DNA of 20,703 bases from a virus, in IMG/VR virus record IMGVR_UViG_3300030102_002902, positions 1 to 20,703 of that record. One strand, given 5' to 3'. The stretch's first letter is position 1. Each line of letters begins with the position of its first letter. Below the pieces are notes generated by a model. That model made no database searches and was not told the DNA's origin. It saw only the letters and a list, made by a program, of their open reading frames with translations. Below, piece by piece: positions 6,793 through 17,633 of this stretch. The position numbers were made by a program, and so were the translations under genes.

Positions 6793-6820
6793 AAAGAAAG
6801 GTGGGGCCGAAGCCCCAACC
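6793..6820 (-). terminator. Intrinsic terminator between capsid and tail genes
   Basis: On the minus strand a GGGGC stem closed by a TTCG tetraloop and GCCCC (6803-6816) is extended through one bulge by GG/CC pairs, and is followed by TTTCTTT. It lies just after the stop codon of the 89-residue gene and ahead of tail tubular A. A UUCG loop on a GC stem with a T-rich tail is a classic intrinsic terminator, probably a leaky one here because essential tail genes follow without an evident new promoter. Confidence 0.75.
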
Positions 6821-11450: not shown

Positions 11451-12974
11451 TTACATTCTTGCCCAAAGTCCTTGCCTTCTATTTCTTGATGGTTTTTTAT
11501 TAAAAACATCAAAGTTTCTTTTAGCTACAATAGGTTTAGCTGGTTTTTGACTGTTGAGTAAAGCTCTACCTTCACCAGCACCTAACATCATATATTGTAA
11601 AGCATCATGAATATGAGAGTACATATTCTTATCAGGCTTATCTGCATAACGCTCACCAGATACTTCCATACGTTTATACTGATACCCACCCTCAAAACCT
11701 TTAATAAGTTGTTGACATCTTCGATCAATAATAAATGCTGGCTTGCCCTCAATCATCTTAGTTAGCTGGGAAGAGACAGCCTCCAATCGAAGATCTACAG
11801 AGTTTGAAGGGGCTGGGAATGCCCTCAAACCAGCACCACGCAAAATATGAAACGGAGTCGATTCATCTGTCTGCGCTCTAAAATCCCCAGCGGGATCGCC
11901 GTATATATACACCTCAGATGCTTGAGAAAATCGGGAGGATATTTCCTCACGCAATACTTCAGCAAACCTAACAATCCCCATATCAAAAGCCACTATCTCC
12001 GACTGGACGAGCCAGCGACCTCTGATCTTTTGCCCAAGCGTAGCCGCTGGGGTAAGCCCAAAGTCCAAGCCAACATATAGCGGTGCGCCAGCCGCGACTG
12101 CTATTTCTTCTTTGGCTATGTGTACTTCTGCTGCGAACATTGGGTATATCGGCTTTCCGTCTTGGATAGTGCCAAGCCTATTCATAACATAGACATCAAT
12201 CCAGCTTTTTGTTTTACCTCTTATTAAATTGTCATAATAGTTAGCAAGCATATGTTTTTTGTTTTCAGCAGTATTGTTCGGCTTATAATCTACCACTTCA
12301 CCATCTTCATCACGCTCTTCAAGCATTGCAGAAGGCTGTGTGAAGAACTGCCAGTTATCAGGTTTTACTAACATCTTAGCTTGTTCTCTTGGGATATGAT
12401 CAGGGATTGGAACTTCGCCAGACATAATAGGCCACCAGTGATCTTCTTCTGGTGCATTTGTATCTGCTATTACACCTGTCCAGTTTGGACCACCATCACG
12501 CATAGAAGGGTATCGACCAACACGCATGGTACAAGCATCAATGATAGACTTAGGAATTTCCCTTGCTTCATTTATCCATATACCTGTTAATTCTAATGAT
12601 AAAAGTTTCTTAACATCCTCTGGTCTATCTAATGCTAAGAAAAGAACCTCAAGTTCTACTTCACCCTTTTTAATGTTGTGGGTGTAGGGGACTGACCAAG
12701 TAAACTTTCCCCATTCATTTTCTGGGAACCAATCAAGCCATGTTTTAATAGTTGTAGTTCGTAGCTGTGGGTTTGTGTTTCGTATAATAGCCCATCTTGA
12801 TTTTCGCTTTCCATCTGGGGCTTTCTTTTGTTCCAAAGCTCTACGAAATACTTCAACGCAACACCCTACCGATTTGCCAGATCCTACTGGTCCTCGAATG
12901 CCACGAAAGAAAGTATTATCCTTCATAAAGCTTTTAAGGATCTCTCCGTCTGGCTTGTATTTAAAATTGACCAC
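11451..12974 (-). CDS. terL: Large terminase subunit (packaging ATPase/nuclease)
   Basis: This 507-residue protein has the two-domain terminase layout. The ATPase has a Walker A loop GPVGSGKSVG (residues 28-37), an arginine-bearing strand RWAIIRNTNPQLRTTTI (60-76) and a Walker B-like LTGIWINEAREIP (129-141), where Asn-Glu replaces the usual Asp-Glu pair. The RNase H-like nuclease supplies LYVGLDFGLTP (D304), YIYGDPAGDF (D360) and HIHDALQYMMLG (D457). It pumps DNA into the procapsid through the portal and cuts the concatemer. It starts with GTG at 12974, whose first base pair overlaps the upstream TAG stop (TAGTG), so its translation is coupled to the small upstream gene. Confidence 0.95.
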   Translation of the reverse strand: MVNFKYKPDGEILKSFMKDNTFFRGIRGPVGSGKSVGCCVEVFRRALEQKKAPDGKRKSRWAIIRNTNPQLRTTTIKTWLDWFPENEWGKFTWSVPYTHNIKKGEVELEVLFLALDRPEDVKKLLSLELTGIWINEAREIPKSIIDACTMRVGRYPSMRDGGPNWTGVIADTNAPEEDHWWPIMSGEVPIPDHIPREQAKMLVKPDNWQFFTQPSAMLEERDEDGEVVDYKPNNTAENKKHMLANYYDNLIRGKTKSWIDVYVMNRLGTIQDGKPIYPMFAAEVHIAKEEIAVAAGAPLYVGLDFGLTPAATLGQKIRGRWLVQSEIVAFDMGIVRFAEVLREEISSRFSQASEVYIYGDPAGDFRAQTDESTPFHILRGAGLRAFPAPSNSVDLRLEAVSSQLTKMIEGKPAFIIDRRCQQLIKGFEGGYQYKRMEVSGERYADKPDKNMYSHIHDALQYMMLGAGEGRALLNSQKPAKPIVAKRNFDVFNKKPSRNRRQGLWARM

Positions 12975-14261: not shown

Positions 14262-14414
14262 TTAGTAAGAACTACCAGAAGAGCCGCCAGATTTAGCTTT
14301 AAGTATTTTTCTTTTCAATGCTGGGGGCAATGTCTTTTGTTTTCCCTTTAGCATTGATTTCTTTTTCTTAGGTCTTCCAACCTTGTCACCGTATGTTCCT
14401 TTTCCCATTGGCAT
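14262..14414 (-). CDS. Very small basic protein with MGKGTYGxKVGRPKKK motif
   Basis: This 50-residue protein begins PMGKGTYGDKVGRPKKKK, continues LPPALKRKILKAK, and ends in a Gly/Ser tail. The opening motif is a recurrent one in tiny proteins between the terminase genes of short-tailed phages. The GRPKKK part resembles an AT-hook core (GRP flanked by lysines), so minor-groove DNA contact is plausible but unproven. ATG 14414 overlaps the TAA of the upstream gene (TAATG), and the following gene starts two bases after its own stop. Confidence 0.7.
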   Translation of the reverse strand: MPMGKGTYGDKVGRPKKKKSMLKGKQKTLPPALKRKILKAKSGGSSGSSY

Positions 14415-14719
14415 TATGCTTTTCCTTTCTTAGCTTTGTTTCTTCGACTTATCGCTCTGGCCTTTGCCTTTGCGTCCGACTTGCTTGATGCTCCCCACGC
14501 TTTTAGGCTGAGAAGAAGACGCGTTGGTTTTCCCTTGCTGTCTCTTTCTGGTCCCTTTGCTCCCCCCATCCTTGCTAGGAAGCTTGCTCTTCGAGGATTG
14601 TCTCCGCTTTTTACTGGGGCTTTTAGTGTTCCCCCCTTGTAACTTGCTCGACCCTTTGCGTTTAGACCGCCCTTGGGATTCTTTCCCTCTTTCCTTTGCC
14701 AAGCTGGAGTTTTCGCCAT
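14414..14719 (-). CDS. DUF6321-like basic protein
   Basis: This 101-residue protein starts MAKTPAWQRKEGKNPKGGLNAKGRASYKGGTLKAPVK and continues through PRRASFLARMGGAKGPERDSKGKPTRLLLSLKAWG. The block WQRxEGKNPxGGLNxKGRxSY followed by NPRRxSFxARMxGxxGP and a C-terminal LxxWG is the DUF6321 pattern, known from many marine phages with no assigned function. The C-terminal 25 residues are Lys/Ala/Arg-rich and probably disordered. The GC-rich, stop-poor sequence leaves other frames open here, including an alternative minus-strand frame (14430-14747), but the conserved motifs identify this frame as the main product. Confidence 0.8.
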   Translation of the reverse strand: MAKTPAWQRKEGKNPKGGLNAKGRASYKGGTLKAPVKSGDNPRRASFLARMGGAKGPERDSKGKPTRLLLSLKAWGASSKSDAKAKARAISRRNKAKKGKA

Positions 14720-14747
14720 TCCACAATCTCTTTAACCAGTTAAACAT
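14430..14747 (-). CDS. Possible overlapping gene in a second minus-strand frame
   Basis: A 105-codon frame from ATG 14747 covers nearly all of the DUF6321-like gene in another frame. In its favour, AAGGG lies seven bases before the ATG, in the first 5' position after a gap, and the N-terminus MFNWLKRLWNGENSSL looks like a real amphipathic phage-protein start. Against it, the remaining residues are low-complexity Ser/Lys/Gln/Arg sequence, as expected from reading a basic gene out of frame, and plus-strand frames are also open here. A short upstream peptide that feeds ribosomes to ATG 14719 is an alternative. Confidence 0.25.
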   Translation of the reverse strand: MFNWLKRLWNGENSSLAKERGKESQGRSKRKGSSKLQGGNTKSPSKKRRQSSKSKLPSKDGGSKGTRKRQQGKTNASSSQPKSVGSIKQVGRKGKGQSDKSKKQS

Positions 14748-14825: not shown

Positions 14826-14898
14826 TAGCAACGTTTCGGGTCTCTGGTTTTTGCCCCACCCCTAGCTCCTGTTGCTATGCACCTGCAAGGAACGTTCC
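14826..14898. repeat. Inverted repeat and palindrome between terS and the small-gene cluster
   Basis: The gap 14748-14906 holds no convincing gene. It contains a perfect 7-bp inverted repeat, TAGCAAC (14826-14832) and GTTGCTA (14871-14877), with 38 bases between the arms, and just beyond it a perfect 10-base palindrome GGAACGTTCC (14889-14898). An A-run at 14802-14809 reads as seven or eight T on the transcribed strand but is not adjacent to a strong stem. The arrangement could be an operator, a processing site or part of the packaging site beside terS. Confidence 0.45.
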
Positions 14899-14906
14899 AG
14901 CAAAAG

Positions 14907-15284
14907 CTACGTCAAGTCAATGGATATGTGTATGTCCCCAGCGACCTGTACTTGGGATCGATCGATCGGTTTAAATCCAGCACGGTCAAGGATATCCTTA
15001 GACGCCTCTAGTTGGACATACTCACTTTTTGCTCCAACCGCTAGTCTCATTACCCTTGCAGCTGCAACCGTAGCATTCATACCTAACTGATCACTAACAC
15101 ATTGCATCATGTACTGTTGCACATGAGGTTGCTTTAAAGCCTTGCTAGCAGTCACTCTACCAGACTCACCTTCTGCATAACCAGCTTCTTTAGCAGCCTC
15201 AGTGATAGAGCAACCTTTTGCTACGAGTGTATCAACCAGAGCAGTCTGTTTTGGTGTTAATCTCTTGTTAATTATATCTGACAT
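14907..15284 (-). CDS. terS: Probable small terminase subunit
   Basis: This 125-residue protein begins INKRLTPKQTALVDTLVAKGCSITEAAKEAGYAEG, the typical N-terminal helix-turn-helix of Terminase_2-type small subunits: LTPKQxxFVxxxVxxGxxxxxAAxxAGY. It then has TASKALKQPHVQQYM (about 46-60), a family hallmark with the xxLxxPxVxxYI pattern, and an AVGAKSEYVQLEASKDILDRAGFKP block (about 87-111), also common in this family. It would recognise phage DNA and load TerL. ATG 15284 follows GAAGGAAC. It is the first gene of the leftward late block, adjoining the structured intergenic region, which is where a packaging site would be expected. Confidence 0.8.
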   Translation of the reverse strand: MSDIINKRLTPKQTALVDTLVAKGCSITEAAKEAGYAEGESGRVTASKALKQPHVQQYMMQCVSDQLGMNATVAAARVMRLAVGAKSEYVQLEASKDILDRAGFKPIDRSQVQVAGDIHISIDLT

Positions 15285-15300
15285 AGTGTTCCTTCAGTAG

Positions 15301-15323
15301 CCCCCCTCTCCCTCTCTCCCCCC
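15301..15323. repeat. Pure pyrimidine tract (purine-rich on the transcribed strand)
   Basis: Twenty-three consecutive C/T bases lie directly before the terS ribosome site. On the minus strand they read as G6, AGAGA, G3, AGA, G6, almost mirror-symmetric. Such a tract can in principle form a G-quadruplex or a triplex, or simply act as an untranslated purine-rich leader. In a window this AT-rich it stands out. Confidence 0.6.
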
Positions 15324-15354
15324 ATTACGACACCAAAACAGGTAGCTCTGTCAA
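15324..15354 (-). promoter_or_regulatory. Candidate leftward promoter for the late block
   Basis: On the minus strand a perfect TTGACA (15354-15349) is followed after 19 bases by CGTAAT (15329-15324), four of six matching the -10 consensus. The start site would fall in or just before the purine tract, giving a leader of roughly 30-40 bases before terS. The long spacer is the weak point. It is the only sigma70-type candidate I find for this direction. Confidence 0.35.
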
Positions 15355-15486
15355 GCCGTGACGTAGCGTAACAATAGTAGTTACGTGGGGTCATTTGGTC
15401 AATTAGGTGATTGACACCTAATTTACCAAGTGTCCGCACACTCTACACTCCCTAAGGAGTGCTTGACACGATGATCCCTTCGATGG

Positions 15487-15599
15487 GTCTATCCCATCTA
15501 TATCTAGCTTGGGCGGCTCGATGGGCTGACGACCTTGCTTAGGCAAGGCTCGCTTGTCCCATCGGCCACCGTAGTAAGCTACAGTGTCAGGGGATAGAC
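15487..15599 (+). ncRNA. Candidate branched RNA domain within the structured region
   Basis: A 9-bp perfect closing helix (15487-15495 with 15591-15599) surrounds a long stem-loop and a small hairpin. The long stem pairs GG (15512-15513), GGC (15515-15517) and CGATGGG (15519-15525) with CCCATCG (15558-15564), GCC (15565-15567) and CC (15569-15570), leaving one mismatch and one bulge, and carries an inner CCTTGC/GCAAGG hairpin (15533-15548, loop TTAG). GTAG/CTAC (15571-15582) follows. A competing local hairpin GATGGG/CCCATC (15482-15498) shares bases with the closing helix, so two alternative folds are possible. The strand is a guess. Confidence 0.45.
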
Positions 15600-15661
15600 A
15601 CACTCAGTGATCATTGTATCTATTCATTACACACAATCTTACAATGATAACTTCCAGTTGG

Positions 15662-15780
15662 GCTTACGAATCAGCTTTATGCAAGGACGATCCGTTCGTT
15701 ACGTCATATGAAATGACGTGACGAGCCGTTCGCCAGCGCAGCTGGTCTTAGCGATCCTTGCATAAATCAGATTCGCTAGC
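15662..15780. repeat. 26-nt inverted repeat enclosing two hairpins
   Basis: The left arm (15662-15687) and right arm (15755-15780) match at 22 of 26 positions, with the core TTTATGCAAGGA identical in both (left arm forward, right arm reversed). Inside, GTTCGTTACGTCAT (15694-15707) pairs with ATGACGTGACGAGC (15713-15726) over 14 positions, two of them G-T, and CCAGC/GCTGG (15733-15745) forms a second hairpin. Together this gives a cross-shaped fold just upstream of the first early gene. Confidence 0.65.
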
Positions 15781-15782
15781 CT

Positions 15783-15831
15783 TGATCATCCTTATGCATA
15801 CAAGAATGTGCATACTGTAACAGATATACAT
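15783..15831 (+). promoter_or_regulatory. Repeat-rich upstream region of the first early gene
   Basis: Just before the ribosome site of the gene at 15846 lie the palindromes TGATCA (15783-15788) and TATGCATA (15793-15800) and a direct repeat of TGCATAC (15795-15801 and 15809-15815), spaced 14 bases apart. TG-TG-CATACT and TATACA are the closest -10-like strings, but no -35 match sits at a normal distance. The pattern looks like an operator or iteron cluster over an early promoter, possibly one needing an activator. Confidence 0.35.
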
Positions 15832-15845
15832 AAGGAGAAAAAGAA

Positions 15846-16394
15846 ATGGATATCGAAACAATTTCAAACGAAATCGTAGTAGCAATCAAGCAATTAACAG
15901 CACCGTTCGAGAAATGGGATAATGAAGACAAGCAGTTCGCAGAGAGTGATAGTATGAGCTATGTCAGAAAGATATTGCTTGAGAAGCTGCTCGATGGGAC
16001 ATTTTACCTACACATCGGTAAGACAGGTGACAGTTCCGAGTCTTACGCTGCAAGCATGAAGCGTAAGGCCGAGGCAGCTTACCGATACAGAGATGGCACA
16101 GAGATCAGCAACAACCTGATCCGAGGCGCAGCTGGTGAAGCACAAGCAGCGAATCAGAAGCACGAGTACCTAGAGACTCTATATGCTGATCTCCAAGCCT
16201 TGTATCTACAAGAGACAGGTCAACACTACATACCTTATAACTCGCCAGTTGGATACAACTTCGGTACTCAGAATGTAGTTCCGAATACGTCCATACCTCA
16301 GGACGCAGAACAGATGTTAGCCGCACTCGGTATCCAAACTGACTCAGCTAACATAGTAGAAGAACCTAAGAAGCAGAAGAAGAAAGCTTCCTAA
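15846..16394 (+). CDS. First early protein, unknown function
   Basis: This 182-residue protein is the first gene of the rightward block. It starts at ATG 15846 after AAGGAG and an A-rich spacer. It is soluble, acidic to neutral and mainly helical in the first 130 residues (ETISNEIVVAIKQLTAPFEKW; SYVRKILLEKLLDGTFYLHIG; a YAASMKRKAEAAYRYR segment; KHEYLETLYADLQALYLQET). A Pro/Asn-rich linker follows, and the C-terminus is very basic (EEPKKQKKKAS). I do not recognise the family. A strong terminator directly behind it makes it a separate transcription unit, so it is likely made early and at high level, as host-takeover or regulatory proteins often are. That role is inference. Confidence 0.8.
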   Translation: MDIETISNEIVVAIKQLTAPFEKWDNEDKQFAESDSMSYVRKILLEKLLDGTFYLHIGKTGDSSESYAASMKRKAEAAYRYRDGTEISNNLIRGAAGEAQAANQKHEYLETLYADLQALYLQETGQHYIPYNSPVGYNFGTQNVVPNTSIPQDAEQMLAALGIQTDSANIVEEPKKQKKKAS

Positions 16395-17253: not shown

Positions 17254-17473
17254 CAGATCAACGCCAAGGTTTACTCGAAGAGACTTCGAGTTTCTTGCAG
17301 ATAAAGTTGCACCTCATCTTCATTGGGCTACTGCTATTGAAGCAATAGCCGACGAGCTTGCTCGTACCAATAAAAGATTTGATCGTGACAAATGGACAAA
17401 TCGTGCTTACAAAAATTGGGAAGCACACGCAAAGATAGGTAGAGATAAATTTGATGACGAAATTCCCTACTAA
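17246..17473 (+). CDS. Small early protein ending in an SSB-like tip (DDEIPY)
   Basis: This 75-residue protein has FTRRDFEFLADKVAPHLHWATAIEAIADELARTNKRFDRDKWTNRAYKNWEAH as its core. The order TRxDFxxxAD, then helix, then NxRFDRDKWxxxxxxxWE is common in tiny early or replication-region phage proteins of unknown function. The last residues, KFDDEIPY, resemble the C-terminal tip of bacterial SSB (acidic residues, then Ile-Pro-Phe), the peptide that recruits repair and replication enzymes. It may therefore compete for, or borrow, SSB partners; this is inference. The next gene begins inside its end. Confidence 0.72.
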   Translation: MADRSTPRFTRRDFEFLADKVAPHLHWATAIEAIADELARTNKRFDRDKWTNRAYKNWEAHAKIGRDKFDDEIPY

Positions 17474-17633
17474 AAAGTGTAATGAATGTGATGGGAATGG
17501 GTACACTGAGTCTGATGTACCCAGACCCCACGGATTTGACAGAGATATAGGATGTATAGATAGTGCTTCTCAAATTTGTGAAAAATGCCAGGGGCTTGGT
17601 ATTATTAGTGATGAAGAGGACATAGATTTCTAA
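17454..17633 (+). CDS. DnaJ-type zinc finger protein with acidic C-terminus
   Basis: From ATG 17454 this is a 59-residue protein with two DnaJ-type zinc knuckles, CNECDGNG (9-16) and CEKCQGLG (42-49), the CxxCxGxG pattern expected for one zinc site made of two halves. It has no J domain, so it is not a chaperone partner in the usual sense; single DnaJ-like knuckle pairs are common in small phage proteins. A TTG one codon upstream could also start it. It overlaps the preceding gene by 20 bases and has no clear ribosome site, so translation is probably coupled. The terminus SDEEDIDF is acidic and aromatic, a loose variant of an SSB tip. Confidence 0.75.
   Translation: MTKFPTKKCNECDGNGYTESDVPRPHGFDRDIGCIDSASQICEKCQGLGIISDEEDIDF

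Follow-up and report, generated by a model that had tools for sequence, protein, structure and literature searches.

Comparison of a viral DNA window (the whole 20,703-nucleotide stretch analysed, positions 1 to 20,703 of IMG/VR record IMGVR_UViG_3300030102_002902) with its relatives shows that the minus strand of positions 15360–15784 encodes a predicted structured RNA, which runs leftward like the late genes, and that a putative DNA site separate from this RNA lies at 15301–15416, directly ahead of the small terminase gene terS. The RNA, of about 400 bases, is to judge from its sequence previously undescribed and constitutes a new RNA family within the scope of Rfam 15. The first-pass annotation had placed a single folded element at 15360–15780. 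Its folded region stands, and the single element gives way to a larger arrangement with two predicted parts, the structured RNA at ~15360–15784 and the DNA site at ~15301–15416. Only a few long structured RNAs are known from phages, and most of them have no known function. The RNA described here combines strong comparative support, a fixed place in the genome and co-occurrence with an orphan early protein, and it was found in about 60 viral contigs, flanked there by terS and by a homologue of the first early gene. The phages that carry it form a widespread uncultured marine group, in which the RNA lies between the early and late genes and keeps its shape while its sequence changes. The element offers a defined and testable entry to the start of late transcription or of replication in marine phages without recognisable replication genes, and the neighbouring DNA site, with its twin G-runs and TTGACA motifs, is a further target in its own right, probably one for terminase.

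Gene context, folding strength and relatives

The region is flanked by terS (14907–15284, minus strand; PF03592, Terminase_2, E = 1.4e-9; PHROG 2538), the first late gene, and by the first early gene (15846–16394, plus strand), which encodes an orphan protein of 182 aa with a lysine-rich tail and co-occurs with the RNA. The large terminase gene terL was assigned to 11451–12974 via similarity to annotated terminases. Within 15360–15780, the list of open reading frames holds no credible gene, the sole frame of at least 60 aa being a 61-aa GTG frame (15418–15603, minus strand), and there are at least six inverted repeats (27, 25, 27, 20, 13 and 12 nt). The minimum free energy (MFE) of this stretch is -175.6 kcal/mol on the plus strand and -174.5 kcal/mol on the minus strand, whereas shuffled controls average -117 and -118 (z = -9.2 and -9.1), and none of 100 shuffles was equally low. 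Energies so far below those of shuffled controls on both strands bear out the earlier description of a gene-free, densely folded region. Within the window itself neither strand has a clear lead, and two of the modules described below, M1 and M4, even fold slightly better on the plus strand; it is through relatives that the minus strand is identified as the probable functional one.

At gathering thresholds Rfam gave no match for the window, a permissive search (E ≤ 5) returned only chance-level matches below the cut-off, and two complete relatives and three further loci gave no Rfam match either. As far as Rfam 15 goes, this agrees with the initial remark that the region belongs to no known RNA class. 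GOLLD and ROOL are phage-encoded large structured RNAs of unknown function (PMC12286853). The present RNA resembles GOLLD, ROOL and OLE in being large and structured, but differs from them in having no Rfam match, in lying always between terS and the early gene, and in the absence of a tRNA gene from the window.

A terS search yielded 80 relatives, and a search with a 16-mer from the RNA (GCCCAACUGGAAGUUA, 15648–15663, minus strand) yielded 73 contigs, some of them through chance. Where the contig is long enough, every true relative has terS at one flank and, at the opposite flank, an early-gene homologue 174–285 nt from the 16-mer; one of them (L119) is nearly identical to the window. Most relatives show strong folding z-scores. 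Three (L005, L065 and L073) have the G-run/TTGACA site and little structure there, so the RNA appears dispensable in part of the group. No match was found in the phage collection at the DNA level, and a terS protein search of that collection found pelagiphage EXVC031P Hodr alone, which is also nearest via terL and is the closest isolate. The context of the 16-mer is absent from the bacterial genomes of the collection, and no prophage or host was therefore identified; a literature search on Hodr or on this RNA found nothing.

Covariation, strand and modules of the RNA

Module M1 (15661–15784, minus strand; covariance model R1), which is likely to be the 5′ end of the RNA, is predicted to form a three-way junction closed by a long stem, P1, with GGC..GCC ends. 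Two hairpins belong to the junction, a small one (CCAGC-nnn-GCUGG) and a large one with the consensus CGUnACGUCAU-CUUGU-AUGACGUnACG. Among 27 distinct sequences 95.3% of cells are paired, and in an alignment fitted to the structure 26 of 44 pairs have changed on both sides with pairing kept and covariation reaches 0.515, compared with 0.176 in shuffles (0/500) and at most 0.057 in slid controls. Changes on both sides were also seen in 11 of 23 pairs in a plain MAFFT alignment made without the covariance model, and in 13 of 44 pairs in a MAFFT subset. Stems are thus kept in homologues despite changed sequence, and together with the covariation and the G.U bias given below this strongly supports the non-coding RNA that had been among the first suggestions for the region.

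The same relatives point to one strand. A covariance model built from 14 relatives, whose E-values are rough, assigned 39 of the 40 anchored loci to the minus strand. The RNAalifold consensus energy was -43.4 on the minus strand versus -21.0 on the plus strand, and the minus-strand MFE lay below that of the plus strand in all 39 distinct relatives, to which base composition partly contributes. We also counted wobbles in a strand-neutral manner, with G.U pairs forbidden during folding and neither strand favoured. The ratio of G.U to A.C was 16:0 in M1, 6:1 in M2, 3:0 in M5 and 1:1 in M4, and 33 relatives without the 16-mer, several of which have large hairpins of similar shape, show the same bias (39:9 and 49:17). 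Since the helices carry G.U in place of A.C, the functional strand is most readily taken to be the minus strand, and this bias led us to reject, for M1 and M2, the idea that the structure belongs to a plus-strand leader of the early gene. In one relative without the 16-mer (L195), an M1-like junction was judged visually, with a model score of just 13.8 bits.

The wobble counts also bear on two readings in which the folded molecule would be DNA. A cruciform or palindromic duplex, with equal strands and forming part of a single packaging or origin site, would agree with the near-equal folding of both strands in the window alone and with M4, a hairpin that favours neither strand and shares positions with the DNA site. 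However, the wobble pairs are strand-biased and M1 keeps its pairing and not its sequence; we regard this reading, already disfavoured for M1 and M2, as highly improbable. Alternatively, the minus strand could fold as single-stranded DNA and serve as an origin or priming site, given that DNA also tolerates G.T, in which case the wobble bias would identify the strand and not the molecule. Tolerance of G.U along extended helices that contain 1x1 mismatches, a loop that is conserved and a linker that is both invariant and unpaired are nevertheless usual traits of folded RNA, and several modules spread across ~400 nt exceed the needs of known single-stranded priming sites, which makes a DNA structure of this kind very unlikely.

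Leftward of P1, all on the minus strand, the RNA continues through a mostly unpaired segment into four further modules. The 16-mer contributes the GCC that closes P1 and is otherwise unpaired in the model. It is identical across all aligned relatives selected with it, an invariance that comes partly from the selection of relatives through terS, the 16-mer or the early protein, and it also occurs in relatives found independently via terS and via the early protein. The adjoining linker (15606–15647; anchor-to-M2, alignment A1) is conserved and mostly unpaired, contains AAGAUUGUGUGU and shows no clear folding excess (z about -1). Module M2 (15465–15622) is a long-range branched stem (z = -7.7 on the minus strand) with the tip hairpin CGAGCCUUGCCUAAGCAAGGUCG at 15530–15552, and other lineages show a similar architecture with a different sequence. 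It is followed by hairpin M3 (15445–15462; CACUCC-UUAG-GGAGUG) and by hairpin M4 (15385–15440; z = -5.2 on the minus and -7.7 on the plus strand), the loop DNA of which doubles as an inverted copy of TTGACA. Hairpin M5 (15367–15385; CGUAAC-n7-GUUACG) reads CGUCAC/GUGACG in relatives, a compensatory change in the alignment.

A conserved DNA site directly ahead of terS

The DNA site at 15301–15416 is conserved in sequence, not in structure, and lies mostly outside 15360–15780. It comprises, on the minus strand, twin G-runs (GGGGGGAGAGAGGGAGAGGGGGG, 15301–15323) directly ahead of the terS start codon, the motif TTGACA (15349–15354) 25 nt before the G-runs, and the inverted copy TGTCAA (15411–15416), which reads TTGACA on the plus strand. 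In 112 loci the two G-runs are always of equal length (6/6 in 66 loci and 7/7 in 46, mixed never), with a spacer of 6–11 nt; TTGACA lies 24–25 nt ahead of them in 77 of 81 distinct loci, and 56 of these 81 have the inverted copy, all of these being counts that include related lineages and amount to a handful of independent events. Apart from a few outliers, the inverted copy is 51, 60–62, 71 or 80–82 bp from TTGACA, spacings that correspond to whole helical turns in different lineages. The site is retained in L005 and L065, where structure is weak, with L073 carrying a variant, and its persistence there makes it independent of the RNA. Some loci have a second TTGACA 11 bp further on.

This arrangement looks like a terminase recognition site (cos/pac) or a regulatory site. 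In lambda cosN-cosB and in headful pac sites, a short conserved stretch of DNA upstream of terS carries repeated binding motifs at helical spacing. A conserved DNA site adjoining terS, with phased repeats, is likewise present at 15301–15416, and the likeness extends to its position just ahead of terS; it differs in its twin equal G-runs, its lack of rotational symmetry and the location of its motifs beyond the G-runs relative to terS. The packaging site suggested by the first-pass annotation may fit this sequence-conserved, helix-phased neighbour, a mostly different stretch from the one that was named. Two relatives are assemblies with overlapping ends, as in circular or permuted genomes. Contig ends near the G-runs were considered as physical ends and dropped, their positions varying among contigs, and TTGACA as an ordinary late promoter was rejected for want of a -10 element at a fixed distance. 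A 21-nt inverted repeat (86%; 15237–15257 and 15330–15350) would span the start codon and base-pair the leader of terS with codons of that gene.

An RNA near packaging genes also invites comparison with the pRNA of phi29, which keeps its structure as its sequence diverges and is encoded near packaging genes. The present RNA shares both properties. It differs in that these phages have terS as well as terL and in having no Rfam match. To our knowledge phi29-type motors lack TerS, and an RNA ring in place of TerS is not what is found here, with terS present at 14907–15284.

Possible roles of the RNA

As to function, our tentative first choice is that the RNA is a cis-acting, antitermination-type leader of the ~26-kb late operon. 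In such a scheme the RNA would start at the 5′ end of M1 (~15784), beside the leader of the early gene, and form the 5′ leader of the late transcript. The folded leader would act in cis on host RNA polymerase, in the antitermination manner of the HK022 put RNAs, and would let a single-strand operon of ~26 kb be read through, with the early orphan protein as a possible partner and the twin G-run/TTGACA site as a putative terminase recognition (cos/pac) site crossed by late transcription. The put RNAs are about 70 nt long, consist of two stem-loops, are located in early leaders and act in cis without a phage protein. The proposed likeness is that of a cis-acting structured RNA that starts a long phage operon and acts on host RNA polymerase without help from a phage protein; compared by description, put RNAs are ~70-nt elements of early leaders, whereas this RNA is a multi-module structure of ~400 nt on the late strand.

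Several observations are consistent with a late-operon leader. The RNA is on the terS strand and always between terS and the early gene, and in complete relatives the late region occupies a single strand over ~26 kb. No terminator was found between the RNA and terS within 14850–16000 of the window, and relatives do not share one at a constant position. Among the early proteins scanned, no antiterminator reached curated cut-offs. Terminator-like hairpins with U-runs occur inside the minus-strand RNA in L120 and in four further relatives (L086, L108, L121 and L133), and another lies in the late operon at 6817–6802; if the RNA is a leader, all of these hairpins would need readthrough. In L086, L108, L121 and L133, M1 carries an insert.

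Other observations weigh against the leader. The late region is not enriched in terminator-like sites relative to shuffles. No sigma-70 promoter is recognisable on the minus strand ahead of M1, so the 5′ end of the RNA is a guess, and the TTGACA near 15354 may belong to a distinct late promoter, in which case the late message would not include the RNA. The RNA is also not needed throughout the group, as L005, L065 and L073 indicate. A 60-aa zinc-finger protein (17451–17633, plus strand) weakly matches phage Q antiterminators in their zinc-binding part and could act as a protein antiterminator. A search for a phage RNA polymerase was uninformative, with no match in control genomes either.

The early protein brings in a second reading, a structured RNA that acts in trans from its own short transcript, possibly as a ribonucleoprotein with the first early protein, in counter-defence, host take-over or regulation. 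All 10 genomes that have the RNA encode the protein, and none of the 9 that lack the RNA do. A search with the protein found 56 loci, from only two of which (L195 and L173) the 16-mer is missing; L195 has the M1-like fold and L173 is a contig cut off upstream, so that 55 of the 56 have either the 16-mer or an M1-like fold. Several relatives whose RNA is similar in shape only also encode weak homologues of the protein. The invariance of the largely unpaired 16-mer in the linker and the lysine-rich tail of the protein would suit such a partnership. The two genes are adjacent, however, and linkage alone can explain their co-occurrence. Moreover, no 3′ end or terminator divides the RNA from terS in the window, and no fold or family assigns the protein a function (no Pfam or PHROG match for the window's protein; predicted fold with pLDDT 75, no informative PDB match and uncharacterised viral matches). 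We consider action in trans possible but doubtful.

The early genes bear on a third reading, in which the RNA would be a preprimer resembling ColE1 RNA II: a structured RNA of ~490 nt ending at the G-runs would stay paired with the C-run template in a persistent R-loop, and it would prime replication without a phage initiator. The nameable early genes are recombination genes, no polymerase, primase or initiator was recognised among them, and DnaB is absent from 19 genomes of the group. The promoter of ColE1 RNA II lies 550 bp upstream of an origin that works without an initiator (PMC5043065), and the length of our RNA and its distance to the G-runs are similar; both are structured RNAs of roughly 500 nt upstream of a G/C-run, in a replicon without an obvious initiator. 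The GC-skew minimum falls at the RNA, but coincides with the switch of coding strand. Against a preprimer, the G-run site is retained where the upstream region is barely structured, the helix-phased TTGACA pair better fits a protein–DNA site, and several uncharacterised early proteins could be initiators. A difference from ColE1 is that the G-runs here go together with terS and with helically phased TTGACA motifs. We judge a preprimer unlikely. A wider version, in which a late-ward RNA primes initiator-free phage replication at a G-run R-loop beside the packaging gene and so couples origin, packaging site and late transcription in a 500-bp element, is in our view quite unlikely.

Beside the proposed start of the late-operon leader, the leader of the early gene has a predicted structure of its own. 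On the plus strand, UCCUUAU..AUAAGGA (15789–15837; inverted repeat I12) can pair over the ribosome-binding site, and the pairing is kept with changed letters in several relatives, which suggests that translation of the early gene is under control. Beyond terS, two overlapping minus-strand frames of 101 and 105 aa (14414–14719 and 14430–14747) run in different registers and have homologous frames in G001 and L195.
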